A DNA stretch of 64,000 bases from an uncultured Alphaproteobacteria bacterium (GCA_903831255.1 CAIKWZ010000009.1:62001-126000), one strand, 5' to 3'. Shown: positions 3,756 to 25,890, counted from the stretch's first letter. Numbers and translations: made by a program. Notes: a model not told the origin generated them from the sequence alone.

Positions 3756-3757
3756 GT

Positions 3758-6700
3758 CTAGGTCTCCGTCACGCATGGAGGTCCGTAGCCTCCGCCTCCA
3801 GGGGTCGAGATGATCAGGACATCGCCGGCGTCAACCGAGACCGGATCGGTTCCAAGGCTCTCTTCGACGCCGCCTGCCGCCCGCGCCCACCTTGAGCCTG
3901 CGGGTAATCCGGCCTCTCCGCCTGCGAGCCCGAAGGGCGAGGTTCGTCGTCGGGTCGCAAGAATGGCTGCGGTCATGGGCGATCGGAAGCGGATTGCGCG
4001 CACCACGCCGTCTCCTCCCCTCTGGCGACCGCGACCGCCTGATCCGCGGCGGATCTCGAAGGTCTCGAGCAGAACCGGAAATCGTGTTTCGAGGATTTCA
4101 GGATCGGTCAGACGGGAGTTGGTCATGTGGGTCTGAACTGCGTCCGCGCCGTCGAAATCCGGCCCGGCGCCTGCGCCGCCGCAGATCGTTTCATAGTACT
4201 GGCGCTCGTGATCGCCGAAGGTGAAATTGTTCATCGTGCCCTGCGACGCGGCAAGAACGCCAAGAGCGCCATACAGAACGTCGACTGTCACCTGGCTGGT
4301 TTCCACATTGCCCGCGACCACCGCGGCGCCGGGCTCGGGATTGAGAAGACATCCGGGCGGGACCACAAGATCGATCGGGGTCATGCAGCCCTCGTTCAAC
4401 GGGATCGCCTCCCTGACCAGCGTCCGGAACACGTAGAGGACCGCCGCCCGGGCGATGGCGAGGGGAGCGTTGTAGTTGTCTCCGGTCTGCAGGCTCGTGC
4501 CCGTGAAATCGATTTTCACGCGTCGCGCTTCGCGATCAGGATCAATTCGCACGGCGATCACGGCGCCATTGTCGAGCCTCGCCTCGAAGGCTCCGGGTTC
4601 GAGGGTGTCGATCACGCGCCTTATGTGTTCGGCGGCGTTCTTCTGGACATGACCCATATAGGCCCGCACGCCGGCGAGGCCGTATTCGGCGACAAGGGAT
4701 TTCAGTTCCTCGCCGCCCCGACGGCAGGCGGCGATCTGCGCTTTCAGATCTGCGATGTTTCGGTCGATATTGCGGGCGGGATAGGGGCCCGAGGCGAACA
4801 CGGAGCGGGCCTCAGCTTCGAGGATGGTCCCGTTCTCAGCCAGCAGGAGATTGTCGAGGATCACCCCCTCCTCCTCGATCCGAACGCTGTTCGGGGGCAT
4901 GGATCCGGGCGTGACGCCGCCGATGTCGGCATGATGGCCGCGGGCGGCGGCAAAGAAGGAGGGTTCAGGATCTCCCTCAAGGAACACAGGAGCCATGAGG
5001 GTGATATCGGGAAGGTGGGTTCCTCCGGCATGCGGGGCATTCAGCATGTAGATATCGCCGTCCCGCATGCCCCGTCCGTCGCGCTCGCGCGTGCGACGCG
5101 CCTTCACGACGCGTATGCTTTCGCCCATTGAACCCAGATGAACGGGGATGTGAGGCGCATTGGCGACGAGGCCCCCGTCGCGGTCGAAGATCGCACAGGA
5201 GAAGTCCAGTCGTTCACGGATATTGACCGAGGCTGCGGTCATCTGAAGCGCAAGGCCCATCTCCTCGGCGATGCTCATGAAGCGATTGTTGAAGATCTCG
5301 AGAAGGATGGGATCGGGACGCAGGGCTTCCAGGCGACGGGCAGGCCTCTCTCCGCAGCGTTCCAGAATGAGATCGCCTTCTGCTGTCACCCGCGCCTTCC
5401 ATCCGCTCGCGACCCACGTGTTGGCGCTCGCCTCCGTGATCAGGGCAGGTCCGTCGATTGTCGACGCCTCGGTCAGGTCTTCGCGTCTCCAGACGCGCTC
5501 TGTGTCCTTAAGGGTTACATCCTGCACGTCAGTCCGGGGCGTGTCAGCGCAATGGCGCACGCCCGGCGGACGCTCCGCCTCGATCACGGCTTCAGCTGAG
5601 AGAGCGGCGAGGATGAGGCTGCGGCCGCTGTCGATGAATCCGAAACGCCTGCGGTGTTCGGCTTCAAAGGCGGCCCGGAGATCGCCCTCATAGGGCCATG
5701 GGAAGCCCAGCTCGACCTCGCCCCCGTCGTACCGCAAGGACGCGGTCAGACGTGTGGTCACGATCTCGCCTGGCGAGGCCTGAGACATGAGCGCCTCCCG
5801 GGCGGCCGTCATCAGATCCTGCGCGCGGGCGGTCGGTTCGACCGTCTCCAGGGGTTCGGCGATTGTGGTTTCGCGAACGGTCCGAAGGTCCGCCCGTCCC
5901 ATTCCCCAGGCGGACAGGACCCCGGCGTGACGGTGAAGAAGGATCGTCTGAACTCCGACAAGGTCCGCAACCGCGCATGCATGCTGTCCGCCCGCCCCTC
6001 CGAAGGCGCAAAGAACATATCCGGCGGGATCATATCCGCGCTGGATCGAGATCTGACGGATCGCCTCGGCCATGTGGCGATCTGCAATGTCGATGAAGCC
6101 CTGGGCGAGGGTCTCTTCCGACAGCCTTGAGCCGGAGGCCTTCTCGATCTGGGAAGAGATGTGCTGCAGCCTCGCGCGACTGGCCTCCGGATCGGGCGGC
6201 TGATCGCCTCCGGGACCGAAGATCGCCGGAAAGCAGTCCGTCCGAATTCGACCGAGGACCAAATTGCAGTCCGTGATCGTCAGGGGGCCGCCTCTGCGGT
6301 AACAGGCCGGTCCCGGATCAGCTCCGGCTGACTCTGGTCCGACCCTGAGGCGCGCGCCGTCGAACCGGCAGATCGATCCGCCTCCGGCCGCCACCGTGTG
6401 AATGCGGAGCATAGGCGCACTGATCCTGACGCCGTCGATGACGGTGTCGTGGGTGTGTTCAAAGGCGCCTGCGAAGTGCGAGACGTCGGTTGAGGTTCCG
6501 CCCATGTCGAAACCGATCGACTGGCTGAAGCCTGCGGCTCTCGCCGCCGCCGCCATGCCCGCCACGCCGCCGGCCGGTCCTGACAGGATGGCTGACCGAC
6601 CATCGAAGGCGTCCGCCCGCGTGAGGCCCCCATTCGACTGCATGAAGTAAACGCGTTTCCCTGCACCAAAGGCGGCGGCGATCCTTCGGGTATAGGACTG

Positions 6701-7345
6701 AAGGCCTGGCGACAGGTAGGCGTTGGCGACGGTTGTGTCCGTTCTCGGTATGAAGCGGATGAGCCCAGACATTTCGGAGCTCAGGGACACGTGGGAGAAC
6801 CCCGCCTCGCGTGCAAGGTCTCCGGCCCGCTGTTCATGACCCGGATAGGCCCAGGCGTGCAGGCATGCGATCGCGCAGGCGTCGAAGCCATCCGCCCGGG
6901 CCTGGGCCAGATCTTCCCGGAGACGGTCTTCGTCGAGGGGGATCAGGATCTCGCCTTCCGCCGTCACCCGCTCGCGCAGCGCGAAGGTCCGTGCATGAAG
7001 ACGAGACGGTTTGACGATTTTCAGCGCGAAGATGTCGGGACGAGCCTGATGACCGATATCGAGAGCGTCTGTGAAGCCCTCGGTGATCAACAGAGCGACC
7101 TTCTCGCCGCGCCGCTCGAGAAGAGCATTGGTGGCGACGGTCGTTCCCATCTTGACGACATCGATGTCGCTCACCTGCGCATCATGTTCAGTCAGAATGG
7201 CGCGGACGCCTTCGATCGCTGCGTCCTCATAGCGCTCCGGATTGTGGGAGAGAAGCTTTCGGACCAGCTCACGCCCGTCGGGAGCGACGGCCACGATGTC
7301 GGTGAACGTTCCGCCGCGATCGATGTGGAATCTCCATCCTCGCAT
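3758..7345 (-). CDS. 5-oxoprolinase (ATP-hydrolysing), single-chain HyuA-HyuB fusion
   Basis: 1195 residues, close to the length of eukaryotic-type single-chain 5-oxoprolinases. It cleaves 5-oxo-L-proline to L-glutamate using ATP. The N-terminal HyuA-like half begins with FHIDRGGTFTDIV (residues 6-18, nucleotide-binding loop) and carries a second actin-like phosphate motif, GFDMGGTSTDVS, near residue 280. The HyuB-like half begins around residue 665 (ILLEIFNNRFMSIAEEMG) and ends with a Gly-rich GGGGYGPP tail. Start: ATG 7345 preceded by AAGGA. It is the first gene of the coupled run oxoprolinase-DUF969-DUF979-DUF2891-carboxypeptidase. Hydantoinase or acetone carboxylase homologues share the fold, but the fused order and the DUF969/979 neighbours favour oxoprolinase. 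Confidence 0.9.
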   Translation of the reverse strand: MRGWRFHIDRGGTFTDIVAVAPDGRELVRKLLSHNPERYEDAAIEGVRAILTEHDAQVSDIDVVKMGTTVATNALLERRGEKVALLITEGFTDALDIGHQARPDIFALKIVKPSRLHARTFALRERVTAEGEILIPLDEDRLREDLAQARADGFDACAIACLHAWAYPGHEQRAGDLAREAGFSHVSLSSEMSGLIRFIPRTDTTVANAYLSPGLQSYTRRIAAAFGAGKRVYFMQSNGGLTRADAFDGRSAILSGPAGGVAGMAAAARAAGFSQSIGFDMGGTSTDVSHFAGAFEHTHDTVIDGVRISAPMLRIHTVAAGGGSICRFDGARLRVGPESAGADPGPACYRRGGPLTITDCNLVLGRIRTDCFPAIFGPGGDQPPDPEASRARLQHISSQIEKASGSRLSEETLAQGFIDIADRHMAEAIRQISIQRGYDPAGYVLCAFGGAGGQHACAVADLVGVQTILLHRHAGVLSAWGMGRADLRTVRETTIAEPLETVEPTARAQDLMTAAREALMSQASPGEIVTTRLTASLRYDGGEVELGFPWPYEGDLRAAFEAEHRRRFGFIDSGRSLILAALSAEAVIEAERPPGVRHCADTPRTDVQDVTLKDTERVWRREDLTEASTIDGPALITEASANTWVASGWKARVTAEGDLILERCGERPARRLEALRPDPILLEIFNNRFMSIAEEMGLALQMTAASVNIRERLDFSCAIFDRDGGLVANAPHIPVHLGSMGESIRVVKARRTRERDGRGMRDGDIYMLNAPHAGGTHLPDITLMAPVFLEGDPEPSFFAAARGHHADIGGVTPGSMPPNSVRIEEEGVILDNLLLAENGTILEAEARSVFASGPYPARNIDRNIADLKAQIAACRRGGEELKSLVAEYGLAGVRAYMGHVQKNAAEHIRRVIDTLEPGAFEARLDNGAVIAVRIDPDREARRVKIDFTGTSLQTGDNYNAPLAIARAAVLYVFRTLVREAIPLNEGCMTPIDLVVPPGCLLNPEPGAAVVAGNVETSQVTVDVLYGALGVLAASQGTMNNFTFGDHERQYYETICGGAGAGPDFDGADAVQTHMTNSRLTDPEILETRFPVLLETFEIRRGSGGRGRQRGGDGVVRAIRFRSPMTAAILATRRRTSPFGLAGGEAGLPAGSRWARAAGGVEESLGTDPVSVDAGDVLIISTPGGGGYGPPCVTET

Positions 7346-8526: not shown

Positions 8527-8937
8527 GGGAACCTTTCGCGGCGATGTCGCCGTCCAGATGCGATAATGCTCTACCACGCGGTTTAGACCGAGGGCGGCAT
8601 GTCCGTCGAGAGGGGGGGCGCCCCGCGTCCGGGACGGGCGCTCATGCCGGCGCTCTTTCACAGACGCAATGCCGGGCGACCGAATCATCGGCGAGGTGTC
8701 GTTGGGTGAAGCGGTTCAGGTCTGCAGGCGGTCAACGTCCGATCGACGACCGTAGTTCACGCGGCTGTGATCGCGCCGGTGTTGAAAAACCAAAGCTTTC
8801 GCAAGACGCCGTCCCCCGGACGAAGGACGACAGGGGTTGTCAATCTTCGAAACGTGAGTCTAGCCTCTCATAGTCCGGTTTTATGCCGGATCAACAAAGA
8901 CGCCGTCGACAGAGGCAGGCGCACAGGGGAGAGAGAC
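8527..8937. other. 411-bp divergent intergenic region
   Basis: Separates the minus-strand KAS III gene from the plus-strand TonB receptor, so it must hold at least two promoters. A possible plus-strand sigma70-like pair is TTGTCA at 8837-8842 with TAGCCT at 8861-8866 (18-nt spacer); the -10 is weak. A short inverted repeat, TCCGG-N7-CCGGA, lies at 8874-8890 in the presumed leader. The receptor's ribosome site GGGGAGAGAG is at its end. No convincing gene is visible. Confidence 0.4.
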
Positions 8938-11900
8938 ATGTCAAATAATGCGCTTTCGGGCGTATCAGCGATCGCGTTCATGATCGGTGTGGCCGGGTTA
9001 TCGGTCGCGAACGCTCAGCAGGCGCCGGCTCCCGATCAAATTCCAGCCGCGGCGAAGCCTGCAGACGACAAAGCGGTCGAACGCGTCGTCGTCACCGGTT
9101 CGAACATCGCCGGGGCGACTGAATCCGCCGCCCTTCCGGTTGAGGTCTACACGGCTGAAGAGTCCCTGAAGCAGGGCAATCAGACCGCGCTTGAGTTCAT
9201 CAAGACCCTGAGCGTTGTCGGTTCGACTGTGGGTGAGACCAACCAGTTCCAGGCCGGATATGGCGGGATCGGGTCGTCCTCGCTCAACCTCCGGGGCCTC
9301 GGAGGCGGCCGCACGCTCACCATCTTCAACGGGCGTCGCTTCTCTGAAAACACCAATATGATCCCGCAGATGGCGCTCTCGCGCACCGAAATCCTCAAGG
9401 ATGGCGGCGCGGTGATCTACGGCGCCGACGCGACTGGAGGCGTGGTCAACTTCATCACCCGCGACAGTTTCGACGGTCTGATCGTGGATGGTGAGTTCAA
9501 GTCTGTCGACGGATCGGACGGCGACTACAATGGCGGTCTGCTCTGGGGAAAGCAGTTCGACCAGTCCAATCTGATGTTCTCCGCCGAGTTTTCGCACAGA
9601 AGCGAACTTCCGATCACCGCTCGCGACTGGGCGCTGCACACCTACGCCGAGAACCCTACGCCCTGGGCGCCCTATCACAATTATTCCGCTTACGTGCTCC
9701 GTTCGGCGACGGGATCGGCCGTTGGGGTTGTCAACGACTTCACCCAGTCGGAATGCGAGGGCTCCAGCGGCCCTGTTCCCGGTTTCTATCAGCCGAATTT
9801 CGGCGGCGCCGGCATTAACGCCTGCTGGTGGAACTATGCGGCTCACACCTACAATCTGGTTGAGGAAAACGATCAGGTCCGCCTCTACGGCCAGTTCGTC
9901 AGCGACCTTGACGAGAGCACCCGGTTTACGGCGACGCTCTCCTACGGCAAGTCGGACGCCAATTCGATCGGAACCGTGGCGTCCTACCAGGCGAACGTGG
10001 GCCCCGCTCCGGCGTCCGGAACCGCGTTCCAGTATCGGGTGCCGAGGGCGAACCCCTACTTCGCTTCGTTCCTGACCCAGAACGCCTCTCAGGTGAACCC
10101 GGCGGCCCTGCCGGCGATCGCCTACGCTGAACAGTTCCTTTCGATCTTCTTCGGTCCGAGCGGCGCGCCCAACTGGGCGCGGGGGGAAGGCACCACGCCG
10201 ACCACCCAGCTTGAGAACTGGAATGCCGCGGCCATTCTCGAGGGCGAGTTCGGCGACGGCTTTGGCGGCTGGCTCGATACCTGGAAGACCTCGCTGACCT
10301 ACAACGTCTCGACCACCGATTCGACGCTGCCGGACATCGTCGCTTACAAGGTCCAGGAAGCCCTGAACGGCTTTGGGGGCCCCAACTGCAACGCGCCGGA
10401 CCTCGTGGCTGACCGGTTCGACACGGCGGGTCTCGACGCCAACGGCAACGGGGTCGTCTCCAACGACGAGTTCTACGCCGTAGTGGGCACTCAGAACGCA
10501 GCCGCTGCGGGCAAGAACGGTTGTCTTTACCTCAACCCGTTCTCCTCGAGCTATGCGCGCAATGGAACCTTCGGACAGGCGAACCCCCGTTACATCGCCG
10601 GCAATGAGGTTCCGGCCGAACTCGCCAGCTGGCTCTATGACGAGCGTCAGTCAGAGGATCAGACGAACAACCTGACCTTTGACGCTCTTGTCACTGGCGA
10701 GGCTCCTGTCACTCTGCCGGGCGGTCAGATCGCCTGGGCCGCCGGCGCCCAGTGGCGTCAGTCGGAGTTCCGCGAGACCAGCTCCAGCCGTTATCTCGAT
10801 CCGAGCGATTTCCCGTGCCAGTGGCCGGGACAGAGGCCGGGTCAGGTGGGCTGCGCGCCGACAGGCGATTCGCCGTACTTCTTCTTCGGTTCGGACGATC
10901 AGTCGAAGTCGGATAACCAGCAGTACTCCTACTTCGGAGAGATGCAGATCCCGGTTCTCGACAACCTGGGCTTCCAGCTCGCCGTCCGCCGCGAGGAGTT
11001 CCCCCGCGCGGGGCTCGGCGCGACCGTTTACAAGATCGCCGGCAAGTACGATCCCTTCGACTGGCTCGCGATCCGCGGTTCGTTCGGCACCAACTACTCC
11101 ACCCCGCCCGCGAACATCGTTCCGGGGAACATCTCCACGGGTCTTTCGCTTATCGCCCGGGCGGGCAACTCCTATCTCCGCGTCGAGACCGAAACCCTCG
11201 CCGGCATCAAGCCGGAGACGGCGGAAGTCTACAACCTCGGCGCTATCTTCACGTTTGATGAGGGGATGCCGCTCGACGGTCGTTTCCGTCTCAGCCTTGA
11301 TTATTTCAACTTCAAGATCATCGATGAGATCAAGACCGTCAGCCACAACGCCATCGTGAACTCCGTGGTTGCGTCTTCGTCCGCCTTTGTGAACTGTGCT
11401 GCGGCTCTCATTCCGCGCATCAGCTTCAAGACGGGCGTCGGGGCCGCCGGCTGTACGCAGGGTGTGACCAAGGGAACAGACATCAGCGGCGTACGCAGCG
11501 TGTTCGGAAACGGACCCGGCGCGCAGACGTCCGGTGTCGATATCGACGCCACTTACAGCTTCGATGCTCTGGGAGGTGAGATCTCGACAAGCCTGACAGC
11601 GACGAACGTCCTGACCTATGACATCGCTGCCTTCAGCCTGAACGGAACCCAGATCTCGCCGGATGTCGACGGTCTTGGCTTCGCCAACTACTCGCGTGAC
11701 GGAGACCTCGTGTCGGAGTGGCGCGGCAACGCCAGCGTCAACTACAGCAACGGACCCCACAATCTGCGGTATGTCCTGCGTTACATCCAGGGCGTCGAGG
11801 ACGATCGTCAGGCTCTCACCAGCCCCTATCGTCAGATCGACGATTTCATCACCTCGAACCTCTATTACCAGTACACGCTGCCGTGGGATGAAGACTTCAC

Positions 11901-12030
11901 CGTCAGCTTCTCCATCGACAATCTGACGGATGAAGCGCCGCCCTTCACCCAGCAGCAGTACAGCTACGATCCGTTCATCGGAAGCGCCCTCGGGAGGACC
12001 TACGAGATCGGTTTCCGCAAGTCGTTCTGA
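8938..12030 (+). CDS. TonB-dependent outer-membrane receptor
   Basis: 1030 residues from ATG 8938, preceded by GGGGAGAGAG. The frame is open upstream, but this start gives a clean signal peptide (about residues 1-27, cleavage after ANA). The mature N-terminus has ERVVVTGSNI, the conserved entry to the plug domain. The plug runs to about residue 175 and includes LRGLGGGRTLTIFNGRR. The rest is a beta-barrel with many aromatic/Gly strands ending in RKSF, with the terminal Phe needed for barrel insertion. It resembles the large TonB receptors common in Caulobacterales and sphingomonads, whose substrates are often peptides, glycans or aromatics rather than iron. A serine hydrolase follows after a strong terminator. 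The substrate cannot be told from the sequence. Confidence 0.92.
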   Translation: MSNNALSGVSAIAFMIGVAGLSVANAQQAPAPDQIPAAAKPADDKAVERVVVTGSNIAGATESAALPVEVYTAEESLKQGNQTALEFIKTLSVVGSTVGETNQFQAGYGGIGSSSLNLRGLGGGRTLTIFNGRRFSENTNMIPQMALSRTEILKDGGAVIYGADATGGVVNFITRDSFDGLIVDGEFKSVDGSDGDYNGGLLWGKQFDQSNLMFSAEFSHRSELPITARDWALHTYAENPTPWAPYHNYSAYVLRSATGSAVGVVNDFTQSECEGSSGPVPGFYQPNFGGAGINACWWNYAAHTYNLVEENDQVRLYGQFVSDLDESTRFTATLSYGKSDANSIGTVASYQANVGPAPASGTAFQYRVPRANPYFASFLTQNASQVNPAALPAIAYAEQFLSIFFGPSGAPNWARGEGTTPTTQLENWNAAAILEGEFGDGFGGWLDTWKTSLTYNVSTTDSTLPDIVAYKVQEALNGFGGPNCNAPDLVADRFDTAGLDANGNGVVSNDEFYAVVGTQNAAAAGKNGCLYLNPFSSSYARNGTFGQANPRYIAGNEVPAELASWLYDERQSEDQTNNLTFDALVTGEAPVTLPGGQIAWAAGAQWRQSEFRETSSSRYLDPSDFPCQWPGQRPGQVGCAPTGDSPYFFFGSDDQSKSDNQQYSYFGEMQIPVLDNLGFQLAVRREEFPRAGLGATVYKIAGKYDPFDWLAIRGSFGTNYSTPPANIVPGNISTGLSLIARAGNSYLRVETETLAGIKPETAEVYNLGAIFTFDEGMPLDGRFRLSLDYFNFKIIDEIKTVSHNAIVNSVVASSSAFVNCAAALIPRISFKTGVGAAGCTQGVTKGTDISGVRSVFGNGPGAQTSGVDIDATYSFDALGGEISTSLTATNVLTYDIAAFSLNGTQISPDVDGLGFANYSRDGDLVSEWRGNASVNYSNGPHNLRYVLRYIQGVEDDRQALTSPYRQIDDFITSNLYYQYTLPWDEDFTVSFSIDNLTDEAPPFTQQQYSYDPFIGSALGRTYEIGFRKSF

Positions 12031-12051
12031 GGCCTGCGAACCGACTGATCG

Positions 12052-12086
12052 AACCCCGGGCTCTTCCGAGCCCGGGGTTTTTTTTT
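12052..12086 (+). terminator. Rho-independent terminator after TonB receptor
   Basis: A perfect 12-bp stem (12052-12063 with 12068-12079), TTCC loop, followed by a run of nine T ending at 12086. It lies 21 nt after the receptor stop, so the downstream hydrolase needs its own promoter or readthrough. Confidence 0.92.
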
Positions 12087-12159
12087 GGTTGCAGACCGCA
12101 CCTCTCCGCTGCCCTATGGGGTATCGGCCGGATCGGTTGCGGCGGCCAGACGGAGAGAG

Positions 12160-13398
12160 ATGATGAGCGGTATCGAGGTAGTGGATCCTGGCGAGGTCGG
12201 TCTCTGCGCGGAGAGGCTGGCGAGAATACCGGCGTTTTTTGAGCCCTATCTCTCCAAGGGACGCCTGCCCTGTGTGGCGGCGCTTGTGGCGAGGGGCGGA
12301 GCGGTGGCGCATCTGTCCTTCCAGGGCGCAACGGAGATGGGGGGCGATCGGGCGATCGACGAACAGACGATCTATCGCATCTATTCGATGACCAAGCCGG
12401 TCACGTCGACGGCGGCGATGATGCTGTTCGAGGAGGGGCTTCTTCGTCTTGATCATGAGGTCCACCGATACATCCCGGAGTTCAGGGACGTCATGGTCTG
12501 GGATGGCGGAAGTCCTGATGCTCCGAGGCTCCGCCGACCGGATCGGGCGATGACCGTTCGTGACCTGTTTCTGCATACCTCGGGGCTGACCTACGCTTTC
12601 CTGCAGCAGCACCCGGTCGATGCGCTCTATCGTCAACGCGGTCTCGAATACGGTGGCTGGAAGGGCGATCTCAAGTCCTTCTGCGAAGGGCTGGCGAGCG
12701 CGCCTCTCGTCTTTTCGCCAGGCGAGGCGTGGAACTATTCCAATGCGACAGACGTCCTCGGAAGGGTTGTCGAGGTCGCTTCCGGGATGACGCTTGAGGC
12801 GTTCTTCCGGGATCGGATCTTCAAGCCACTCGGTATGACGGATACCGGTTTTCACATTTCGGATGAGCGGATCGATCGACTGATGGCGTGTTATTGGCGC
12901 AATCCGGAGACGGGGAAGATCATCCAGAGCGATCCTGGAGGCCGGGCCAGCGCTTACTCCCGGCCGCCCAACGTGCTCTCCGGAGGGGGAGGTCTCGTCT
13001 CGACCATCGGGGACTACTTCAAGTTCTGTCTGATGCTGATCCAGGGCGGCGAGCTGAACGGGGTCCGCCTGCTCTCGCCGAAGACGGTTGAGTTCATGAC
13101 CCGCAACCATCTTCCGGGGAACCAGACCATCGCCCAGATGGGCGATAAGACGTTTTCCGAGACCCGCATGGACGGGTCGGGTTTTGGTCTGGGATGGGCA
13201 GTGACGACGGACGTGACGGCCACCACACAGCCGGGGTCGGAAGGCACTTATTCGTGGGGAGGAATGGCTTCGACCTTCTTCTGGATCGATCCCGCCGAGG
13301 ATCTGATCGCCATTCAGATGACCCAGCTCATGCCTTCGGCGTCCTATCCGATCCGGCCTCAGCTGCAGCAACTGGTGTATGCGGCCATTATCGACTGA
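12160..13398 (+). CDS. beta-lactamase-fold serine hydrolase (class C / esterase EstB-like)
   Basis: 412 residues from ATG 12160; the second ATG at 12163 is equally possible and sits 7 nt after GGAG. The penicillin-recognising fold motifs are visible: SMTK at residues 76-79 and YSN at 193-195. There is also an HTSGLTY block near 139 and a C-terminal SWGG element near 380 replacing KTG. Members hydrolyse esters, amides or D-amino-acid peptides, and many are not beta-lactamases. No signal peptide is seen, so it is probably cytoplasmic. It lies between a TonB receptor and an MFS importer-like protein, which suggests breakdown of a compound brought in by them (inference). Confidence 0.88.
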   Translation: MMSGIEVVDPGEVGLCAERLARIPAFFEPYLSKGRLPCVAALVARGGAVAHLSFQGATEMGGDRAIDEQTIYRIYSMTKPVTSTAAMMLFEEGLLRLDHEVHRYIPEFRDVMVWDGGSPDAPRLRRPDRAMTVRDLFLHTSGLTYAFLQQHPVDALYRQRGLEYGGWKGDLKSFCEGLASAPLVFSPGEAWNYSNATDVLGRVVEVASGMTLEAFFRDRIFKPLGMTDTGFHISDERIDRLMACYWRNPETGKIIQSDPGGRASAYSRPPNVLSGGGGLVSTIGDYFKFCLMLIQGGELNGVRLLSPKTVEFMTRNHLPGNQTIAQMGDKTFSETRMDGSGFGLGWAVTTDVTATTQPGSEGTYSWGGMASTFFWIDPAEDLIAIQMTQLMPSASYPIRPQLQQLVYAAIID

Positions 13399-13518: not shown

Positions 13519-15057
13519 TCAGGCTGCTTCGGCTTCAGGCTTTGTCGGCTTGGGCAGAGCCTGGGCGCCCAGGTGCCAGAGGATCGACAGAGGATAGGTG
13601 ATCACCACACAGGCGATCATCGCCCAGCGAAGCGCATCCCGGCCAACGCCGATGTCGGCGATACCCGGGAAGGCTTCCCGGAAGGAGAAGGCGAGCCGGC
13701 CGTGGAGGCCTGCTTGCTGCGCCATGTCGCCGGTCTGGAACCCGCTGGCGTAAGCGGCAGTCAGGTCCACAGAATTAAGCGTCTTGGCTGTCACCATTCC
13801 GGCTTCCTTGAGCGCGGCGTACAGGTTCTCCGTGCGTGCGCACGACCGCGCCGCCTGGACCGCCTGATCGGCCATATTGCAGGCTGCGGCGTCGTTGAAG
13901 AAGTCGCTCGCCATGCCGACCAGCAACGGCCCCAGTCCAAGACCGATCATGTTGAGGATGAGGAAGAGGACGGCTGAGGACATGGCTCTCATGCCCGGCG
14001 GGACAAGAGAGTGGGTGACCGCAAGCGAGGGCCCGAGATAGGCGGCGGCGAGCGTCAGACCGATCCCGTAGCAGGTCAGGGCGATGTAGGGATCGTGAGA
14101 CATCAGTCCGAGGATAAAGATCGGACCGCCGATGAACTTGCCCCACATCGGAATCCAGAGCTGCCAGCGTTTATCTCGCTTGCCCAGCCAGTCAGCGAAG
14201 ATGCCGCCGCCGATGGTCCCGATCGCACCGGCGATGCCGGCGACCATGCCATAGGTGAAGCCGATCTCGGTCCGGCTCATGCCGTGAGAGCGCTCCATGA
14301 AGGGCACCATCCAGTCGCCGACCCCATAGGTCACGAAGGTTCCGACGCCGGTGGCGATCGAATAGAACCTGAACGACTTCAGGCTCCAGAGATGCCGGAA
14401 GGACTGCATGAAGGTGATCTTCTCGGTCGACGGCTTGAGCCCGGAAAGACCCCTCACCGGCTCCTTGACGGTCATCTGCATGAGAATTGCGAGGGCTACT
14501 CCTGGAATACCGACGACCATGAAGGCGGTGCGCCAGTCGAAGGCCTCCGAGAGCCAGCCGCCGCCGACATTGCCCAGGAGGGTCCCCAGATAGAGGCCGG
14601 ATGAATAGATGGCGAGCGCCCGGGCGCGTTTCTCCGGCTCATAGAGATCCGACACGATAGCGTGGGCAGGCGGGCTGCCGCCTGCTTCCCCAACCCCGAC
14701 CCCCATGCGGGCGAGCGCCAGCTGGAAATAGCTGGTGACGAGGCCCGAGATGGCGGTGAAGGCGCTCCAGATGGTGAGGGAGACGACGATCACTCCTTTG
14801 CGGCTGGTGCTGTCGGCGATCCGCGCAACCGGGATCCCGAAGCCCGTGTAGACCAGCGCGAACAGAAAGCCCGTCAGCAGTCCAAGCTGCCCGTCATTGA
14901 GGTTGAACTCCTCCTTGATCGGGGTCTGAAGAATGGTGAGGATGCGCCGGTCGATGAAGTTGAACGCGTAGACCAGCATCAGGATGACGAGAGCATAGGT
15001 TCGGTGCTTTCGCGCCTCCTCCATCGTGGTGATCTTGCCAGGTGTAAACACCCCCAT
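13519..15057 (-). CDS. MFS transporter, spinster-type
   Basis: 512 residues, inner membrane, twelve predicted segments. The start region reads ALVILMLVYAFNFIDRRILT, typical of the spinster-like MFS subgroup, with the signature GVGVGEAGGSPPAHA near residue 120. The start is ATG 15057 with GGAGG 9 nt upstream. Between the last two membrane segments is a long hydrophilic loop of roughly 90 residues (about 375-465) with two Cys about 16 residues apart. Relatives often move organic acids, lipids or amino-acid-like nutrients. It converges on the serine hydrolase and may form a functional set with the TonB receptor. Confidence 0.87.
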   Translation of the reverse strand: MGVFTPGKITTMEEARKHRTYALVILMLVYAFNFIDRRILTILQTPIKEEFNLNDGQLGLLTGFLFALVYTGFGIPVARIADSTSRKGVIVVSLTIWSAFTAISGLVTSYFQLALARMGVGVGEAGGSPPAHAIVSDLYEPEKRARALAIYSSGLYLGTLLGNVGGGWLSEAFDWRTAFMVVGIPGVALAILMQMTVKEPVRGLSGLKPSTEKITFMQSFRHLWSLKSFRFYSIATGVGTFVTYGVGDWMVPFMERSHGMSRTEIGFTYGMVAGIAGAIGTIGGGIFADWLGKRDKRWQLWIPMWGKFIGGPIFILGLMSHDPYIALTCYGIGLTLAAAYLGPSLAVTHSLVPPGMRAMSSAVLFLILNMIGLGLGPLLVGMASDFFNDAAACNMADQAVQAARSCARTENLYAALKEAGMVTAKTLNSVDLTAAYASGFQTGDMAQQAGLHGRLAFSFREAFPGIADIGVGRDALRWAMIACVVITYPLSILWHLGAQALPKPTKPEAEAA

Positions 15058-15248: not shown

Positions 15249-16199
15249 TCAGTTCACCGGCGCGATGGTCCTGCAGGGCGAACCGGCCTCAGGAAGGCTC
15301 GTTTGCGATGTGATGAGGGTGACGGCGAACTTTGCAGCGACGCCGTTGTCGTGACCGAGCCCCGGGGCCAGCGCACACCGCCAGGCCAGAGGGGCCGACG
15401 TATCAGACGCCAGGGTGCGCGCCGATGCGTAAAAGGCCTGGCCGCGCGCGAAGCGATGAGGGCCCTGTTCATTGGCTTCGGGGGTTCGTCTGAGGCTGCT
15501 GTGATCGGGATCCGTGTCGGCGTCTCCGAGGAGGACTGTCAGGGGGGCTTTCAGGGCCGACAGCGGATCGGCGCCTGCCGGAGCGTTTCTGAGGCCGTAG
15601 GGCCAATCAACCCTGCGGTCAGGGAAGGCATACCAACCGGCATTGGCTGCGATGGCCTGCTGCATGCGGGGTCCTTCGCCAAGAAGAACGAAGCGGTGGA
15701 CAAACTGAGCGCCCGCGGAATGACCGTAAAGGACGTAGCCGTCTGCTGTGAGACCTTCGGCCGACCGGATCGCCTCAAAGGCCGCCTCGATAACCGCATA
15801 GCTCCAGGCCGAGCGCGGTTTTTCCTGTCCGGCGTTCGTATGCGTGTCGCCCAGATTATATGCGTCCGCACCCGGGAAGGCGGCCTTTGTGAACTCCGGG
15901 ACGATGACAACGAAGCCATATCTGCGGGCAAGATCCGACCACTCTCTGAGATATCGATCGGCGTCGCGCTGGACCCCATGCATGACAAACACGACCCGGG
16001 CGTCTGCAGGGGTCCCCTGAGGCCGGACATACCAGATGGGAACATTGGTGTGGACCGGCGTCGAGATCATCGTCCGACGCGCTTCGGGAATGTCCGCCAG
16101 CGGGGAGCGGTCTGGGGCAGGCGCTGCAGTCGCGCAGGCTGAGGCGAGCATCAGAGCCGCCAGGATCAGAGTTCTCAAGGGGAAAAGGTCTCCGGACAT
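15249..16199 (-). CDS. Lipoprotein alpha/beta hydrolase
   Basis: 316 residues from ATG 16199, chosen because it begins a signal peptide ending in LASAC (Cys22), a lipoprotein-like cleavage site. A GTG 45 nt further upstream is in frame but overlaps the lyase gene. The catalytic set is readable: Ser161 in GHSAG, an Asp near 226-230 in LLGDADTD, and His283 in GLGHDNG. An oxyanion-type HG (FVMHG) lies near 74. The fold resembles poly(3-hydroxybutyrate) depolymerase/feruloyl-esterase-like hydrolases. It is expected to sit in the envelope. It is the third gene of a run TonB receptor-exported lyase-hydrolase, which suggests joint processing of an imported compound. Confidence 0.8.
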   Translation of the reverse strand: MSGDLFPLRTLILAALMLASACATAAPAPDRSPLADIPEARRTMISTPVHTNVPIWYVRPQGTPADARVVFVMHGVQRDADRYLREWSDLARRYGFVVIVPEFTKAAFPGADAYNLGDTHTNAGQEKPRSAWSYAVIEAAFEAIRSAEGLTADGYVLYGHSAGAQFVHRFVLLGEGPRMQQAIAANAGWYAFPDRRVDWPYGLRNAPAGADPLSALKAPLTVLLGDADTDPDHSSLRRTPEANEQGPHRFARGQAFYASARTLASDTSAPLAWRCALAPGLGHDNGVAAKFAVTLITSQTSLPEAGSPCRTIAPVN

Positions 16200-16225
16200 G
16201 GGGCGATGACGAGAGGACGAGGCAG

Positions 16226-17656
16226 TCAGTTCGGTGTCGGGCACGTCTGACCCGCCCGCGCCCGGGAGGCGGCGACGACCCGGTCGACCTGCCGGGCCGC
16301 GGTCTCGAGCCCCCGGGTGGGATCGAGCAGGCGGTGGATCTCAGCAGGCGACAGGATGCGCGCGATCTCAGGTTCCGCCAGCAGGGCTTTCTCGAAGGAT
16401 GTCTCCGTCTGCACTCTGGCGACAGCGCGACGCACAGCCTCCTCGGCCTGTTCCTGCGACAGGCGAGCGAGAAGCGCCTGAGTGACGGCCTGCGCGGAAA
16501 TCAATCCGCCGGTTCGATCCAGGTTCCGGCGCATGGCCGCCGCATCGACCGCCAGCGCTGCCGTGAGAGCGGCGGCGTCCAGGATCATGGCCTCCGCCCC
16601 GATCATGAGATCGCCCATGGCTGCATTCGGTCGTGAGACATTGTCCCGTTCGAAGACGTTGACGACGTCGTCGAGAATAACCTCCGCCTGTCTCGGGAGA
16701 ACGCGGGAGGCATGAATGAGGCTTTCCGACAGTTCCGGATTGACCTTGTGAGGCATGGAGCTCGACCCGACCGATCCCTGAGGGCGGGTCTCGGCGGCCT
16801 CGGCGATGTCGTCCATCTGCATGAGGAAGATGTCCTGACCATAGCGGCCCAGGGTCCGGGACAGGAGGGAGACTGAGAGGGCGGTTTCCGCGTAAACGTC
16901 CCTCGAGGCATGCCAGTCGTCTTCAAACGGCGCAGGCAGTCCCAGCTCGGCGCCAAACCGGTCCTCGACTTCGACCGCCCGCTGGCCAAGGCCCGCATAG
17001 CTGCCGACGGCTCCCTTCATGATGGATGATCGCGACAGTCGTGCGCGCGTTTCGCAAAGACGCTCCCGATGACGACCAAGCTCTCCGACCCAGACAGAGA
17101 CCCGCTTGCCATAGGTCAGGGGCAGCGCATGGCGTCCCAGAGTGCGTCCCACCACGGGGGTGGCGCGATGGCGGACAGCCAGCTCGACGAGCGAGGCTTC
17201 AAGCGCTTCCAGATCCTCAAGAATTGAGTCAACGGCCTCGATGAGCTGAAGGGTGAGGACTGTGTCGTAGATATCGACCGTCGTGGCTCCGAAGTGCAGG
17301 TGGCTTGCGGCGTTCTCAGACAGCCGGCTACGCCATACCTGCAGGAGGGCCACCATCCGGTGCCCCGTGGTGCGACGCGCCGCCTCGACATCGGCAAGGG
17401 GCGCGAAAGACGGATCAGATCTGGCGGTGATCTCCCGGGCGGCCTCGGCCGGGATCACGCCTTCAGAGGCCTGGGCTCTTGCGAGGGCGGCCTCGACCTT
17501 CATCACGAGAGCGATCTCGTTCTGAGGAGAAAAAATCTCCCGGGAGCTCTGGGCGAACGCCTGGGGTCCGGTCAGAGCGGACAGGCTGGCGGCGAGGGCG
17601 ATCAGCCCTCGCCGCAGACCTGCGCCGCGACTAGAAGTCAGTGCGGACCTGGACAT
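16226..17656 (-). CDS. Exported fumarase/CMLE-superfamily lyase
   Basis: 476 residues from ATG 17656, 4 nt after AGGGAG. Superfamily signatures are clear: SHLHFGATTVDIYDT (119-132), GRTLGRHALPLTYG (170-183) and GSSSMPHKVNPE (297-308). The second block resembles 3-carboxymuconate cycloisomerase more than adenylosuccinate lyase, because the usual Thr-His is Thr-Leu. The striking feature is the N-terminus: twin Arg at 15-16 followed by a hydrophobic stretch and AFA/Q cleavage near 35, a Tat-like signal peptide. Enzymes of this superfamily are normally cytoplasmic C-N or C-O lyases. The start lies inside the 3' end of the TonB receptor gene (26-nt overlap), and a lipoprotein hydrolase follows. 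A periplasmic lyase acting on an imported aminopolycarboxylate or succinyl compound is a reasonable hypothesis. Confidence 0.83.
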   Translation of the reverse strand: MSRSALTSSRGAGLRRGLIALAASLSALTGPQAFAQSSREIFSPQNEIALVMKVEAALARAQASEGVIPAEAAREITARSDPSFAPLADVEAARRTTGHRMVALLQVWRSRLSENAASHLHFGATTVDIYDTVLTLQLIEAVDSILEDLEALEASLVELAVRHRATPVVGRTLGRHALPLTYGKRVSVWVGELGRHRERLCETRARLSRSSIMKGAVGSYAGLGQRAVEVEDRFGAELGLPAPFEDDWHASRDVYAETALSVSLLSRTLGRYGQDIFLMQMDDIAEAAETRPQGSVGSSSMPHKVNPELSESLIHASRVLPRQAEVILDDVVNVFERDNVSRPNAAMGDLMIGAEAMILDAAALTAALAVDAAAMRRNLDRTGGLISAQAVTQALLARLSQEQAEEAVRRAVARVQTETSFEKALLAEPEIARILSPAEIHRLLDPTRGLETAARQVDRVVAASRARAGQTCPTPN

Positions 17657-20600
17657 AGAACTCCCTGCCCTTGAGCCAATGGTAGTCCGGCGAATACCCG
17701 AGCGAATCGTCGACAAGCGGGGGCGCTTCATCGAGCAGGTTATTCGCTCCGACCCGAACGCGCACCGGTCCGTCACGTCCGCCAGGGCGGAAGTCGAGAT
17801 AGCCGTTGAGACGGAAGGCCTCTTCTACGGGGAAGAGATCCTGGACGCCGTCGGCGTTCACATCGACGCTCGCAGAGGTGTCGAGGAAGTCAGAGATGTA
17901 ACGGAGCGACAATCCCGCTCCGAACGATCCCTTCCGCCATGTCACGCTTGCGAGACCCCGCCACTCCGGATTGCCGTTCACCCGGATGCGATCCGGAGCA
18001 ATGGTCTCGAAAGCGCCCGAGAAATTGGGATCGGCCGCAAGCGAGGTGAGCAGGTCGTTGCGGACCAGGTCCAGCGTCTGCAGATAAGTGGCTTCGAAAT
18101 CGAAATCGAAGCGTCCCAGGCCATCGAAGTCGAGACCCAGGGCGACCCCGAGGTCAAAGCCGTCGGCTTCCTGTCTGTCCAGGTTGATGTAGGGGTCGAC
18201 GATGTACAGGATCTGTCCGGCGGCGGCTCTCTGGTCCGTCGGACGGGTGGCGTTCCATGCCGCGAAGTCAGCAAGGTCCTGAGCGTTGACAGCCGCCCGG
18301 ACCACGTTCGGGTTGGAGCCGCCGGTCTTCCGGAGAAGGAAGTCAAGCGCGAGAGCTTCCTGATCGCCGAAGGCGCCGATGACGCCTGTCTGCTCGAAGC
18401 TCCAATAGTCGAGGCTGATCCGGAAGTCGCGCAGCCATTCGCTGTCGATCACCCGGTCAAAGTCGGCGATGGCCCCGAGCACGATGGTCTGGGTGTCCTC
18501 GTTGCGCAGGTTCGGATTGGCCTGGCGGATGCTGGGAAGATAGGTGTCGCCATCCGAGAGCGCATCTCCTGTGACCGGTGAGCGCCAGTAATCGTCGACA
18601 CCAAGGTTCAGGCGGCTGATGTCGCCCCGATTGAGCTGAACCAGATTGGGGACGCGGAACCCTTCAGAGTAAGCGGCCCGGAGATTGAAGAAATTCACCG
18701 GGAACCAGGACAACGCAACCTTTGGGGTGACGGCCCCGTCTTCCAGATCATTGAAGTATTCGCCCCTGACCGCGAGCTGCAGGGTCAGGTCATTGACGAA
18801 TGTGCCCGTCCCGCGGTTGAGCGGGATCAGGGTCTCGCCGAAGACCGAGTAGACATCCCGGTCGGCGGACGAGTCGTCGGTCGGGCTCACTCCGACCACA
18901 TCCGAGCGTCCGGAGACGTTGGCGGTCGAGAAAATCGTTGTTCCGTCGAGACGAGGATCGCGATTCTCGAGGTAGGTTTCGCGGCGCCATTCGGCTCCGA
19001 AGGCCGCTCCCGCAGCCCCGGCCCATGTCGAGAACAGCTCATCGGTCGTCGCCCGGAAATCCCATGTTGCGAGTTCAGTACGACCCGAATTGGTGCTGGC
19101 GATCCGAACGCGATCCCACTGAGCCTTGGTGTTGGCGTTCGGGCCTCCGAACGGATTGATGGCGTCGGGGGTGGAGCGTGACAGTTCTGCCTGAAGCAGC
19201 GTTTTGGATATGCGGTTGTTCTCGATATCCGTGGTTTCGTTGCTGCTGACCGCGAGGGCACTCTCCCAGTCCCAGTTTCCAAACTCGCCTCGCAGGCCCG
19301 TCAGAAGGCGATAGGTCTGCGTATCGGTAAAGATCCCGCGAGCGCCCAGTTCGACCGGTCGCCACTGTTCGACGAGGACATCGAGCCCCGCGGTCGGCAC
19401 CGTTGTTGTCGACAGACCGGGTATGCGGTTGACGCTGCCCACGGGCCCGAAGGGGTTCCAGTAATTGGATTTCGGCACGATCAGGAAGGCGAGGCCGGAA
19501 TCCATCGGCTGGGTCGCCCGGTTGGAGGCTGTCTCGGCCTGATAGAAGAGCGCCTCTCCGAAAAGCTCCAGGTTGTCGCTGATATCGTGTTCGAACTGGA
19601 CATAGGCGTTCGTTCTGTTGGCCTTGGAGATCAGCTGCCGGCCGAGGGCCTGAACGCCATCCTGCTGAACATTGATGCCCTGATTGAGAGAGTTATTGGG
19701 CTGGTTTGCGCCAAAGTCGTAGCGCAGCCCGACATCGAGGGTGCCGTCGTCGATACCGACGCAGCCGTCAGGCCCGCGTGATCCCAACTGAACCAGGGTG
19801 CCGGAGAAGCTGCAGGGCTGGATGTGGAACTGGCCAATGGTGTTTGCCAGAGATGTGGTGCCGACCCTGGGTCGAACGCCCACGAACTGCGTCCCGTTCA
19901 CCAGATTGCCGACCACGAACTGGCCATAGGGCGAGGCGACAGAGGTGTTGCGGAAGTCCGCGTCGGATGCGTAGGGGCTCGAGCCCAGGAAGGCCCGCTT
20001 GTCGACGAAGTTGAACTGGGGACCGAGCTCGCTCGAATAGAGTCCGTTGCGTGAATAATAGGACCCGATCATCAGGACCCGCGTACGGTCTTCATTGAAG
20101 GAGAAGCCGTGGGCGAGGTCGATGCTGGATTCCATGTGCTCGGTGCCTTCGACCCCGGCGGTGCGGAAGGTCAGGCGGGTTTCGTCGAAATCATTCGACA
20201 GGATGGTGTTCACCACGCCGGCGGTTGCGTCCGCTCCATAGAGCGCGGAGGCCCCGTCTCTGAGGACTTCAAACCGATCGACGCCAGCGGAGGGAAAGGC
20301 GTTGACGTTGGTCACCTGACGGGGCGTCGAGCCGATGTCCTGGTTGACGGCGTGTGCGGCGATCCTGCGGCCGTTCAGAAGAACAAGCGTGTTGCCTGTT
20401 CCGAGGCCCCGAAGGTTCACGGTCGCGATGTCGCCCCGCGCGTCATTGGGGCCGTCGGCCGCGCCGTTGATTTCAAAGGTCCCGGCCTGTGCGAGGTTTT
20501 CCAGCAACTCGCCCGTGGAGGACTGAGACAGGGTTTCGAGCTGTTCCTGGCCGATGATCGATACAGCGATGGCCCCGCTGTCGGATGCGCCCTTGATGTT

Positions 20601-20756
20601 CGATCCCGTCACAACGACGGTTTCCGGCGCCTGCTGCTCCGGTCCCGCCGGCGCGGCGACCTGAGCGACCGCGCTGTATGACTGCAGCGCGCACGCCAGG
20701 GCCAGAGCGCTCGTTACGCATCCGGCAAAGGGTTTCCTCGCATTGTAATTGGACAT
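17631..20756 (-). CDS. TonB-dependent outer-membrane receptor
   Basis: 1041 residues. The signal peptide covers about residues 1-31 (cleavage after VAQ or AVA). It is followed by a proline-rich linker and ETVVVTGSNIKGASDSGA, the typical plug entry. The plug contains GRRIAAHAVNQDIG and DGASALYGADATAGVVN (to about residue 170). The remainder is a beta-barrel ending in VQVRTDF with terminal Phe. It belongs to the same broad group as the receptor at 8938-12030 but is clearly divergent, so it is not a recent duplicate. Its last codons overlap the start of the exported lyase, implying coupled translation and a shared substrate. Confidence 0.92.
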   Translation of the reverse strand: MSNYNARKPFAGCVTSALALACALQSYSAVAQVAAPAGPEQQAPETVVVTGSNIKGASDSGAIAVSIIGQEQLETLSQSSTGELLENLAQAGTFEINGAADGPNDARGDIATVNLRGLGTGNTLVLLNGRRIAAHAVNQDIGSTPRQVTNVNAFPSAGVDRFEVLRDGASALYGADATAGVVNTILSNDFDETRLTFRTAGVEGTEHMESSIDLAHGFSFNEDRTRVLMIGSYYSRNGLYSSELGPQFNFVDKRAFLGSSPYASDADFRNTSVASPYGQFVVGNLVNGTQFVGVRPRVGTTSLANTIGQFHIQPCSFSGTLVQLGSRGPDGCVGIDDGTLDVGLRYDFGANQPNNSLNQGINVQQDGVQALGRQLISKANRTNAYVQFEHDISDNLELFGEALFYQAETASNRATQPMDSGLAFLIVPKSNYWNPFGPVGSVNRIPGLSTTTVPTAGLDVLVEQWRPVELGARGIFTDTQTYRLLTGLRGEFGNWDWESALAVSSNETTDIENNRISKTLLQAELSRSTPDAINPFGGPNANTKAQWDRVRIASTNSGRTELATWDFRATTDELFSTWAGAAGAAFGAEWRRETYLENRDPRLDGTTIFSTANVSGRSDVVGVSPTDDSSADRDVYSVFGETLIPLNRGTGTFVNDLTLQLAVRGEYFNDLEDGAVTPKVALSWFPVNFFNLRAAYSEGFRVPNLVQLNRGDISRLNLGVDDYWRSPVTGDALSDGDTYLPSIRQANPNLRNEDTQTIVLGAIADFDRVIDSEWLRDFRISLDYWSFEQTGVIGAFGDQEALALDFLLRKTGGSNPNVVRAAVNAQDLADFAAWNATRPTDQRAAAGQILYIVDPYINLDRQEADGFDLGVALGLDFDGLGRFDFDFEATYLQTLDLVRNDLLTSLAADPNFSGAFETIAPDRIRVNGNPEWRGLASVTWRKGSFGAGLSLRYISDFLDTSASVDVNADGVQDLFPVEEAFRLNGYLDFRPGGRDGPVRVRVGANNLLDEAPPLVDDSLGYSPDYHWLKGREFYVQVRTDF

Positions 20757-21497: not shown

Positions 21498-21572
21498 TGG
21501 TGGGCGATGCAGGGATTGAACCTGCGACCCCCTCGGTGTGAACGAGGTGCTCTCCCGCTGAGCTAATCGCCC
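21498..21572 (-). tRNA. tRNA-Val (anticodon CAC)
   Basis: Cloverleaf on the minus strand: acceptor GGGCGAT pairs with ATCGCCC. The D arm has GCTCAGCGGGAGAGC, the anticodon loop TTCACAC gives CAC, and the T arm has GGTTCAATCC. A genomic CCA (21498-21500) is encoded. It decodes GUG. A degraded recombinase abuts the 3' end. Confidence 0.96.
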
Positions 21573-24351: not shown

Positions 24352-25401
24352 TCAGCGCGTTCGCGCCGCTTCGGCAGCCCGTTTTTCCTGAAGGCGCGCG
24401 CCGGCGAGGATACCGGGCATGGCGTAGTTGCCTTCATGGCACGCGTACTCATAGACCTGCTTGGGAGAGGCGTAGAAGCTGAGCTCCGCGGTCCAGGGCT
24501 GGCGGTAGAGCGCCGGGTCCTCGACTGTGAAGGCATAGAAGATCTCCTTCTCCGAGACGCGCGTGAAGCGTTCGGTGATCCGGCCGCCTTCGGTGATGGC
24601 GATCGAACTCGCGTCGGCCTGTTCCGGACGGATGTTCATCGTCTCGACAACCAGCGTGGCGCCTTCGTACCAGCCTACGGAATCGCCCAGCCATGGGCGA
24701 ATGGCGGACGGGCGATGATTCTCGCGGGCTTCTTTTGCCGTGTCGAAGGTGGGGATGATGCGGGCGTCATGCACCATTTCCACCAGGATCATGACGTGGT
24801 CGCCGGTCTGAACGATCTGATGGGTGTTGTTGTAGAGCGTGCTCAGCATCCCGGGCCCGCCTGTGTTTCCAAACCCGATAAGGCATCGCTCGGCGAGGTT
24901 CGTCGCTTCGGGACCTTCATTGCCTCCAATGCCGGTTGCGTAACGAACAGAGCCCCTCCGGCGTTTTGCTTCAATGGCCGCCGCATCCACGAACGGGATC
25001 TGTCCGTTGGGGGGATCGACGATGTAGGAGGAGCGATACTCTCCTTTGACGACCGCCAGCCTGTCTCCGGGCGCCACCCAGAAATTGTCATAGGCCTTGA
25101 TGCCGAAGTCCTGCCCCCCGGCTGTCGGCGCCCCTTCCTCGGGAGCGGTGAACGCGGGCGTCTCGGCCCCTTCCGGCGCGAAACCGGCGACGGTTGTCCT
25201 GGCGACGATGGCGTCGGCTTCGCTGGGTGACAGGACCAGGCGATCGACGCCCGGAGGTCGGGTGAGGGTGGTGAGCGAGGCATTGGTCCAGACCCCATCA
25301 AGGTCGGGTCGGTTTCCGCTCTGTGCGATGGCCGGAGAGGTCAGGACTGATACGCCGGCCGCACAGGAGATGAGCATAGCCGTCAGATGTGAAGTTCGCA
25401 T
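24352..25401 (-). CDS. Secreted protein of unknown function with WLGDSVGWYEG motif
   Basis: 349 residues from ATG 25401, behind GGGAGGACGAC. A signal peptide runs to about residue 27 (PAIAQ/S). The mature protein begins with a PDLDGVWTN block and carries RPWLGDSVGWYEGATLVVET near residue 235. This pattern recurs in a large family of exported proteins of proteobacteria and acidobacteria with no assigned activity. The C-terminal part has YEYACHEGNYAMPGIL. No catalytic triad or metal motif is obvious. It converges on glmU (31-nt gap) and stands alone. I recognise the family by motif only. Confidence 0.75.
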   Translation of the reverse strand: MRTSHLTAMLISCAAGVSVLTSPAIAQSGNRPDLDGVWTNASLTTLTRPPGVDRLVLSPSEADAIVARTTVAGFAPEGAETPAFTAPEEGAPTAGGQDFGIKAYDNFWVAPGDRLAVVKGEYRSSYIVDPPNGQIPFVDAAAIEAKRRRGSVRYATGIGGNEGPEATNLAERCLIGFGNTGGPGMLSTLYNNTHQIVQTGDHVMILVEMVHDARIIPTFDTAKEARENHRPSAIRPWLGDSVGWYEGATLVVETMNIRPEQADASSIAITEGGRITERFTRVSEKEIFYAFTVEDPALYRQPWTAELSFYASPKQVYEYACHEGNYAMPGILAGARLQEKRAAEAARTR

Positions 25402-25626
25402 GTCGTCCTCCCTGTCCCCTTTTTGTGGTCGGATCGATCTCCGGCCCGCGGGGCTTTTAACCACTCTAGGGGGAATTCCCGCCAAATCCATACCGATCCG
25501 TCGTCTTGGCGTCCTTCGTATCAAGGCGGTCGCGGCCGGAGGTGATCCAGGGTTGACGCCTGCGCTTGACCGGATGGACCGGCTCAGGTCTGATGACAGG
25601 CGGTTGTCCCTGGGAGCGGATGGGTC

Positions 25627-25890
25627 ATGAAACTGAATATCACGGTGGATTGCACGCCCGAGGAGGCCCGTCAGTTTCTGGGCCTGCCTGATATGGGCCC
25701 GATCAACGAGACCCTCACCGCGGCCATTCGTGAGCGGATTGAGCAGAATGTGGAGCTGGTCAGTCCGGACTTCTATCTTCGCCAGTGGCATTCCATGGGC
25801 GGCCAGGTGAGCGATCAGTTCATGCAGATGATGACGGCGGGCGCTCGCGCCGCTGCTGGCGGACCGTCCTCGACCACCTCGAAAAAGTAG
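25627..25890 (+). CDS. DUF6489 family protein
   Basis: 87 residues with the diagnostic opening KLNITVDCTPEEARQFLGLP (2-21) and a helical, Met/Gln-rich remainder ending in Ser/Thr/Lys. This short family is widespread in alphaproteobacteria and of unknown function; the CTPEEARxFLGLPD block may form a small beta-alpha unit. The start ATG has GGGAGCGGAT upstream. It precedes the haem-c lipoprotein gene by 89 nt and may share its transcript. Confidence 0.85.
   Translation: MKLNITVDCTPEEARQFLGLPDMGPINETLTAAIRERIEQNVELVSPDFYLRQWHSMGGQVSDQFMQMMTAGARAAAGGPSSTTSKK

Follow-up and report, generated by a model that had tools for sequence, protein, structure and literature searches.

A putative envelope locus for beta-linked aspartate polymers or isoaspartyl-rich peptides, with an exported fumarase-superfamily lyase, in an uncultured alphaproteobacterium

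Introduction

Enzymes related to fumarase and adenylosuccinate lyase (ADSL) are normally cytoplasmic. Polyaspartate is a commercial product, used as a biodegradable inhibitor of scale and as an additive in agriculture, and the papers that we found describe only the first hydrolases of its breakdown. Among these, PahZ1 of Pedobacter KP-2 cuts beta-amides while alpha-amides stay intact; it requires a trimer, and dimers are left over (PMC4456602). We analysed a stretch of 64,000 nucleotides (nt) from an uncultured Alphaproteobacteria bacterium (GCA_903831255.1, CAIKWZ010000009.1:62001-126000), called here the window, with positions counted from its first letter. In it, the genes for a TonB-dependent receptor, an exported lyase of the fumarase/ADSL/CMLE superfamily and a PahZ1-like hydrolase are adjacent, all on the minus strand. 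From sequence comparison, we consider it somewhat probable that these genes form the centre of a locus by which beta-linked aspartate polymers or acidic peptides rich in isoaspartyl residues are catabolised in the envelope.

Results and Discussion

Layout of the three genes

The receptor (17631-20756, minus strand, 1041 amino acids) matched the Pfam Plug and barrel models with 1.5e-16 and 9.1e-18, respectively. The lyase (16226-17656, minus strand, 476 amino acids) matched Lyase_1 (1.7e-40) and ADSL_C (1e-11); its best start is the ATG at 17656, located 26 nt within the receptor gene, with agggag just 5' of the ATG. The hydrolase (15249-16199, minus strand), recognised with phmmer against the PDB, lies in a reading frame that is open from 16244; with the ATG at 16199 as its start, the gap after the lyase is 26 nt. 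Its N-terminus carries a lipobox-like LASAC, which makes it a probable lipoprotein. An earlier note on this DNA, made from the sequence alone, had described the overlap, the gap and the lipoprotein, and re-examination of the open reading frames confirmed these together with the coordinates.

Export of the lyase

The signal of the window lyase is MSRSALTSSRGAGLRRGLIALAASLSALTGPQAFA/Q, residues 1-35 (17552-17656, minus strand), with the predicted cut at AFA/Q. We aligned 17 lyases, namely that of the window and 16 homologues sharing 40-50% identity with it. An N-terminal hydrophobic stretch was present in 17/17 and absent from the cytoplasmic relatives (KD13 at least 1.6 in the clade, and at most 0.5 in the cytoplasmic relatives where the start was clear). 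The 18th clade member, L095, also has an export signal, and thus all 18 homologous lyases keep the signal peptide on which the earlier note had relied. Export beyond the inner membrane is therefore a well supported prediction. The same note had regarded the signal as Tat-like (twin-arginine translocation), and this part did not stand. Twin-Arg precedes the hydrophobic stretch in only 2 of 17 members, lipoboxes are clear in L035 and L046 and possible in L037 and L039, and Tat was rejected as the general route because the twin-Arg is not conserved. The window lyase's own LRRGLI could be compatible with Tat.

Family placement and active site of the lyase

The genome has three other Lyase_1 genes, which are FumC-, ArgH- and PurB-like by their motifs; the window lyase is the fourth, and the only one of the four with an export signal. 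In a tree with PurB, CMLE, ArgH, FumC and aspartase, the 17 aligned signal-bearing lyases were monophyletic with SH-aLRT support of 100. The signature motifs GSSSMPHKVNP and GATTVDIYDT are intact in the window lyase, and T125, T126, T172, S298, S299, K304 and N306, the fumarate-moiety binding residues of the fumarase/aspartase (Lyase_1) superfamily, are invariant in 17/17, which places the clade in this superfamily. His99, taken to correspond to His68 of B. subtilis ADSL, is also invariant in the clade. Leu173 occupies the place of the region-2 general-acid His of ADSL. The clade has its own motifs VRHRM, IMKGAVGSY and FERDNTSRPN, the last of which replaces the loops binding AMP in ADSL or muconate in CMLE. 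An AlphaFold2 model (pLDDT 82.5) had its best structural matches to Tad1, CMLE, CreD and ADSL. Because the binding residues are invariant, the AMP and muconate loops are replaced and the model matches these four enzymes, the lyase fits a fumarate-releasing enzyme with a leaving-group pocket of its own.

PurB identity was rejected, as TIGR00928 gave 250.1 bits against a cut-off of 326.2, FERDNTS--RPN stands instead of ERDxSxSSVER, and the genome has a separate PurB. Identity with PcaB (3-carboxy-cis,cis-muconate cycloisomerase, CMLE) failed on TIGR02426 (224.0 against 355.75), on NF006554 (270.8 against 595) and on the position outside the CMLE branch of the tree. The XcbD profile cut-off was also missed. 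The kinship with ethylenediaminedisuccinate (EDDS) lyase put forward in the earlier note had to be given up: the argH profile gave 53.3 bits against a cut-off of 279.5 (E 2.2e-14, compared with 1.3e-91 for XcbD), no EDDS lyase entry was named among the PDB matches at E <= 1e-10, and the closest kin are of CMLE, ADSL, CreD and Tad1 types. A search of a plasmid collection returned only non-clade relatives of PcaB/PurB type, with at most about 39% identity.

The PahZ1-like hydrolase

At E <= 0.01 the hydrolase had only three relatives in the PDB: 6ve6, poly(aspartic acid) hydrolase-1 (4.9e-66), which we take to be PahZ1 of Sphingomonas KT-1; 9o7u (2.4e-48), presumably PahZ1 of Pedobacter KP-2; and 3d0k, LpqC (3.1e-43). 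The Ser-Asp-His triad is conserved in the window enzyme, in agreement with PahZ1 kinship. By this homology, the hydrolase would cleave beta-amide bonds.

Distribution and gene neighbourhoods

With the window included, the lyase loci number 18. Thirteen have a PahZ1-like gene no more than 5 kb from the lyase, and in one (L044) a PahZ2 homologue accompanies it. For comparison, among 385 evenly sampled genomes of the class, any PahZ1-like gene was found in only 14 and the lyase clade in only two, the window and G204, and in both of these PahZ1 adjoins the lyase. G244 and G263 were also over the threshold, but their lyases are CMLE-type and outside the clade. A DASS symporter, closest to NaCT, NaDC and VcINDY, is linked in 12 other lyase loci, and an M14 carboxypeptidase of the cytosolic-carboxypeptidase subfamily occurs in nine. 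The genome of the window has DASS and M14 homologues on other contigs; with TIGR00785 (cut-off 198.6) its unlinked DASS protein scored 278.2 bits and the linked one of L042 285.8 bits. Searched with the Maricaulis cluster receptor, the same genome gave two pieces of the window receptor (5.7e-102 and 2.6e-59), with the next best hit elsewhere at 7.3e-29; by sequence, the window receptor is the clear counterpart of the Maricaulis one. The HTCC2207 locus (L044) contains receptor, lyase, DASS and an M20 peptidase matching PahZ2 (7ljh) with 3.4e-88, the next match being 1e-12. It means that a second, non-homologous polyaspartate hydrolase accompanies the same lyase.

The earlier note made its reading depend on the three genes being neighbours in relatives. 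The gene set is indeed found together in many relatives; the order is shuffled. Maricaulis, Oceanicaulis and related genomes have DASS, PahZ1-like gene and receptor, followed divergently by a TetR-type regulator, the lyase and an M14 lipoprotein, while L068 has receptor-PahZ1-DASS-M14-lyase on a single strand. Even L066, from the same genus as the window, has PahZ1-lyase-receptor, compared with receptor-lyase-PahZ1 in the window, and a same-genus lyase copy (G013) sits in the tree with a different genus, apart from the window lyase. Since gene order varies and the tree splits same-genus copies, the linkage seems to be kept by function, beyond inherited synteny. This clustering of the lyase recurs across orders and classes. 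The G204 cluster (L069) adds a D-aminoacylase-like lipoprotein, a DadA-like D-amino-acid dehydrogenase and a DctA/GltP-like symporter, and its D-amino-acid enzymes fit a mixed D/L aspartate substrate.

Some loci depart from this composition. L072, in the window's family, has PahZ1, receptor, M14 and gamma-glutamyltranspeptidase (GGT) genes, with no lyase within the 20 kb fetched. In a Gemmatimonadota metagenome-assembled genome (L041, 9890-11320), a lyase 68% identical to the Maricaulis one stands without the other cluster genes, from either recent horizontal transfer or mis-binning. A class-wide gammaproteobacterial search gave one further clade lyase, without hydrolase neighbour: the exported protein of L095 (9699-11090, minus strand) in a genome of about 1.3 Mb, which suggests use of the lyase outside a polymer locus.

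Proposed pathway

An aspartate polymer or isoaspartyl peptide is proposed as the substrate class because the PahZ1 and unrelated PahZ2 families, an acidic-type carboxypeptidase and a C4-dicarboxylate symporter accompany the lyase. The receptor would bring oligomers into the periplasm, where the PahZ1-like hydrolase would cut beta-amide bonds to give dimers and monomers. An M14 or M20 peptidase, linked in other clusters (M14 is unlinked in this genome), may complete the trimming. Judging from the superfamily chemistry and the intact catalytic residues, the exported lyase would then eliminate fumarate from aspartate, either free, as in the aspartase reaction, or as a terminal N-substituted residue. 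The fumarate may be taken up by the DASS dicarboxylate symporter, whose gene is unlinked in the window genome. The lyase may use aspartate in free form, a beta-Asp dimer or a different N-succinyl compound, and beta-polyaspartate, an isoaspartyl-rich peptide or a gamma-glutamyl mixture are candidate natural polymers. So the import and stepwise dismantling of an amide-linked polycarboxylate by hydrolase and then lyase, as the earlier note proposed, seems largely right; its metallophore substrate was not upheld, the partners being instead polyaspartate hydrolase families, a carboxypeptidase and a C4-dicarboxylate symporter.

By analogy with ADSL, which cleaves the N-acyl-aspartate SAICAR (succinylaminoimidazolecarboxamide ribotide), the lyase could even be exo-acting on the polymer, taking the C-terminal aspartate of beta-peptides off as fumarate and leaving the peptide amide. 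We regard this as distinctly unlikely; if true, it would be a non-hydrolytic depolymerisation of peptides or polyamides in the bacterial envelope.

Several points weigh against an aspartate polymer locus. PahZ1-like enzymes also occur in lyase-free settings (L073-L083) and 3d0k carries the name polyhydroxybutyrate (PHB) depolymerase, so the homology of the hydrolase does not fix its substrate. Neither PahZ1 nor PahZ2 was found nearby in 4 of 18 lyase loci (L067, L041, L045 and L095). DASS and M14 are unlinked to the three genes of the window, and the receptor might have another role. With Leu at the position of the region-2 His, something other than a simple amine may be the leaving group. In addition, beta-polyaspartate is known mainly as a synthetic polymer.

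Alternative explanations

The locus might serve a broader scavenging of acidic isopeptides (beta-aspartyl, gamma-glutamyl, D-residues), in which the lyase would use a different N-succinyl compound and the PahZ1-like enzyme a different amide or ester. It agrees with the GGT genes adjoining related receptors in L072 and L067, with the D-aminoacylase/N-acyl-D-Glu deacylase and DadA of L069, and with the lyases that have no PahZ neighbour. We still judge it unlikely, since the association with PahZ1/PahZ2 is commoner and more specific than that with GGT, and the fumarate-binding residues indicate an aspartyl, malyl or succinyl moiety. Polymalate is a natural polymer isosteric with beta-polyaspartate, and the hydrolase could be a polymalate depolymerase beside a fumarase-like C-O lyase acting on polymalate or a malate ester. 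The weak match of the hydrolase to PHB depolymerase profiles would suit this, and C4-dicarboxylates are DASS cargo. However, polymalate hydrolases described so far lack serine-esterase activity (PMC9210645), unlike the window enzyme, a Ser hydrolase; the M14, M20, GGT and D-amino-acid enzymes of these loci point to amide and amino-acid chemistry, and no lyase would be necessary for malate before DASS uptake. These facts make polymalate improbable.

C-N lyases of the fumarase superfamily cleave N-succinyl chelators, and a TonB receptor is present, as would be needed for uptake and breakdown of a carboxylate metallophore or an aminopolycarboxylate of EDDS or aspergillomarasmine type. Such a function is highly improbable here: the lyase is far from the ArgH/EDDS-lyase branch by the argH and XcbD values given above, its partners are polymer and peptide hydrolases with a dicarboxylate symporter, and the annotated neighbours include no identified metal-handling gene. 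Finally, the lyase shares its overall fold and 31-35% identity with CMLE and ADSL, and might be an ordinary paralogue of them beside unrelated genes, with a chance N-terminal extension. This is scarcely credible for a strongly supported separate clade when the genome has its own PurB and all NCBIfam cut-offs for PurB and PcaB are missed, and the clade-wide signal and the recurrent clustering across orders and classes refute it.

Other genes of the window

A major facilitator superfamily gene at 13519-15057 was rejected as a member of the system and treated as unlinked, because it is not beside PahZ in L066, where an ATP-binding cassette efflux set is found. A tRNA-Val (cac) gene lies at 21498-21572 (minus strand), about 740 bp upstream of the receptor start. 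The roughly 1.4 kb that separate the locus from the next clear gene (22192) are gene-poor; the three genes might have arrived at a tRNA site. The stretch 8767-13398 (plus strand) encodes a second TonB receptor and, after it, a serine esterase of the beta-lactamase fold. This genome has a paralogue of the esterase (L088 11182-12546) next to its unlinked M14 gene, and L036 and L041 contain similar genes. A secreted protein without family assignment, encoded at 24352-25791 (minus strand), has two tandem paralogues, 46-49% identical, at L088 15178-17331, also near this M14 gene. Lastly, a hydantoinase A/B (5-oxoprolinase-like) fusion with DUF979 and DUF2891 proteins at 1070-7345 (minus strand) is possibly a set for uptake and opening of pyroglutamate-type compounds.

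Comparison with known systems

Our search of the open, non-subscription literature found no account of a periplasmic aspartase or of a polyaspartate locus; judged by that literature, neither the exported lyase clade nor its locus appears to have been described. The fumarase/ADSL superfamily would gain an exported subfamily. For polyaspartate breakdown, this type of locus predicts the missing uptake (receptor and DASS) and the missing deamination step. It suggests that these bacteria convert aspartate polymers to fumarate in the envelope before uptake, and gives a hint that aquatic bacteria compete for naturally occurring beta-aspartyl or racemised aspartate material.

The window hydrolase belongs to the same alpha/beta hydrolase family as PahZ1, with 46% (6ve6) and 37% (9o7u) identity over the aligned parts, and like that enzyme it is exported with a conserved triad; it differs in being a probable lipoprotein with a PahZ1 activity predicted from sequence, and the PahZ1 publications found name no lyase or receptor partner. 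PahZ2 (7ljh, M20 family) has its homologue in the HTCC2207 lyase locus, whereas none was matched in the window's own genome at E <= 1e-10. With ADSL, CMLE, nitrosuccinate lyase CreD and trans-aconitate decarboxylase Tad1 the window lyase shares fold, SS-loop and fumarate-binding motifs, but it is exported, forms its own clade, has Leu for the region-2 His, and lacks both the ADSL phosphate motif SSVER and the CMLE motif. EDDS lyase, which belongs with ArgH-type enzymes, has the superfamily and the proposed C-N lyase chemistry in common with it. The proposed conversion of aspartate to fumarate beside a C4-dicarboxylate transporter resembles aspA-dcuA of E. coli; AspA, however, is cytoplasmic and only distantly related, whereas the window lyase would work outside the inner membrane with a transporter of the DASS family.

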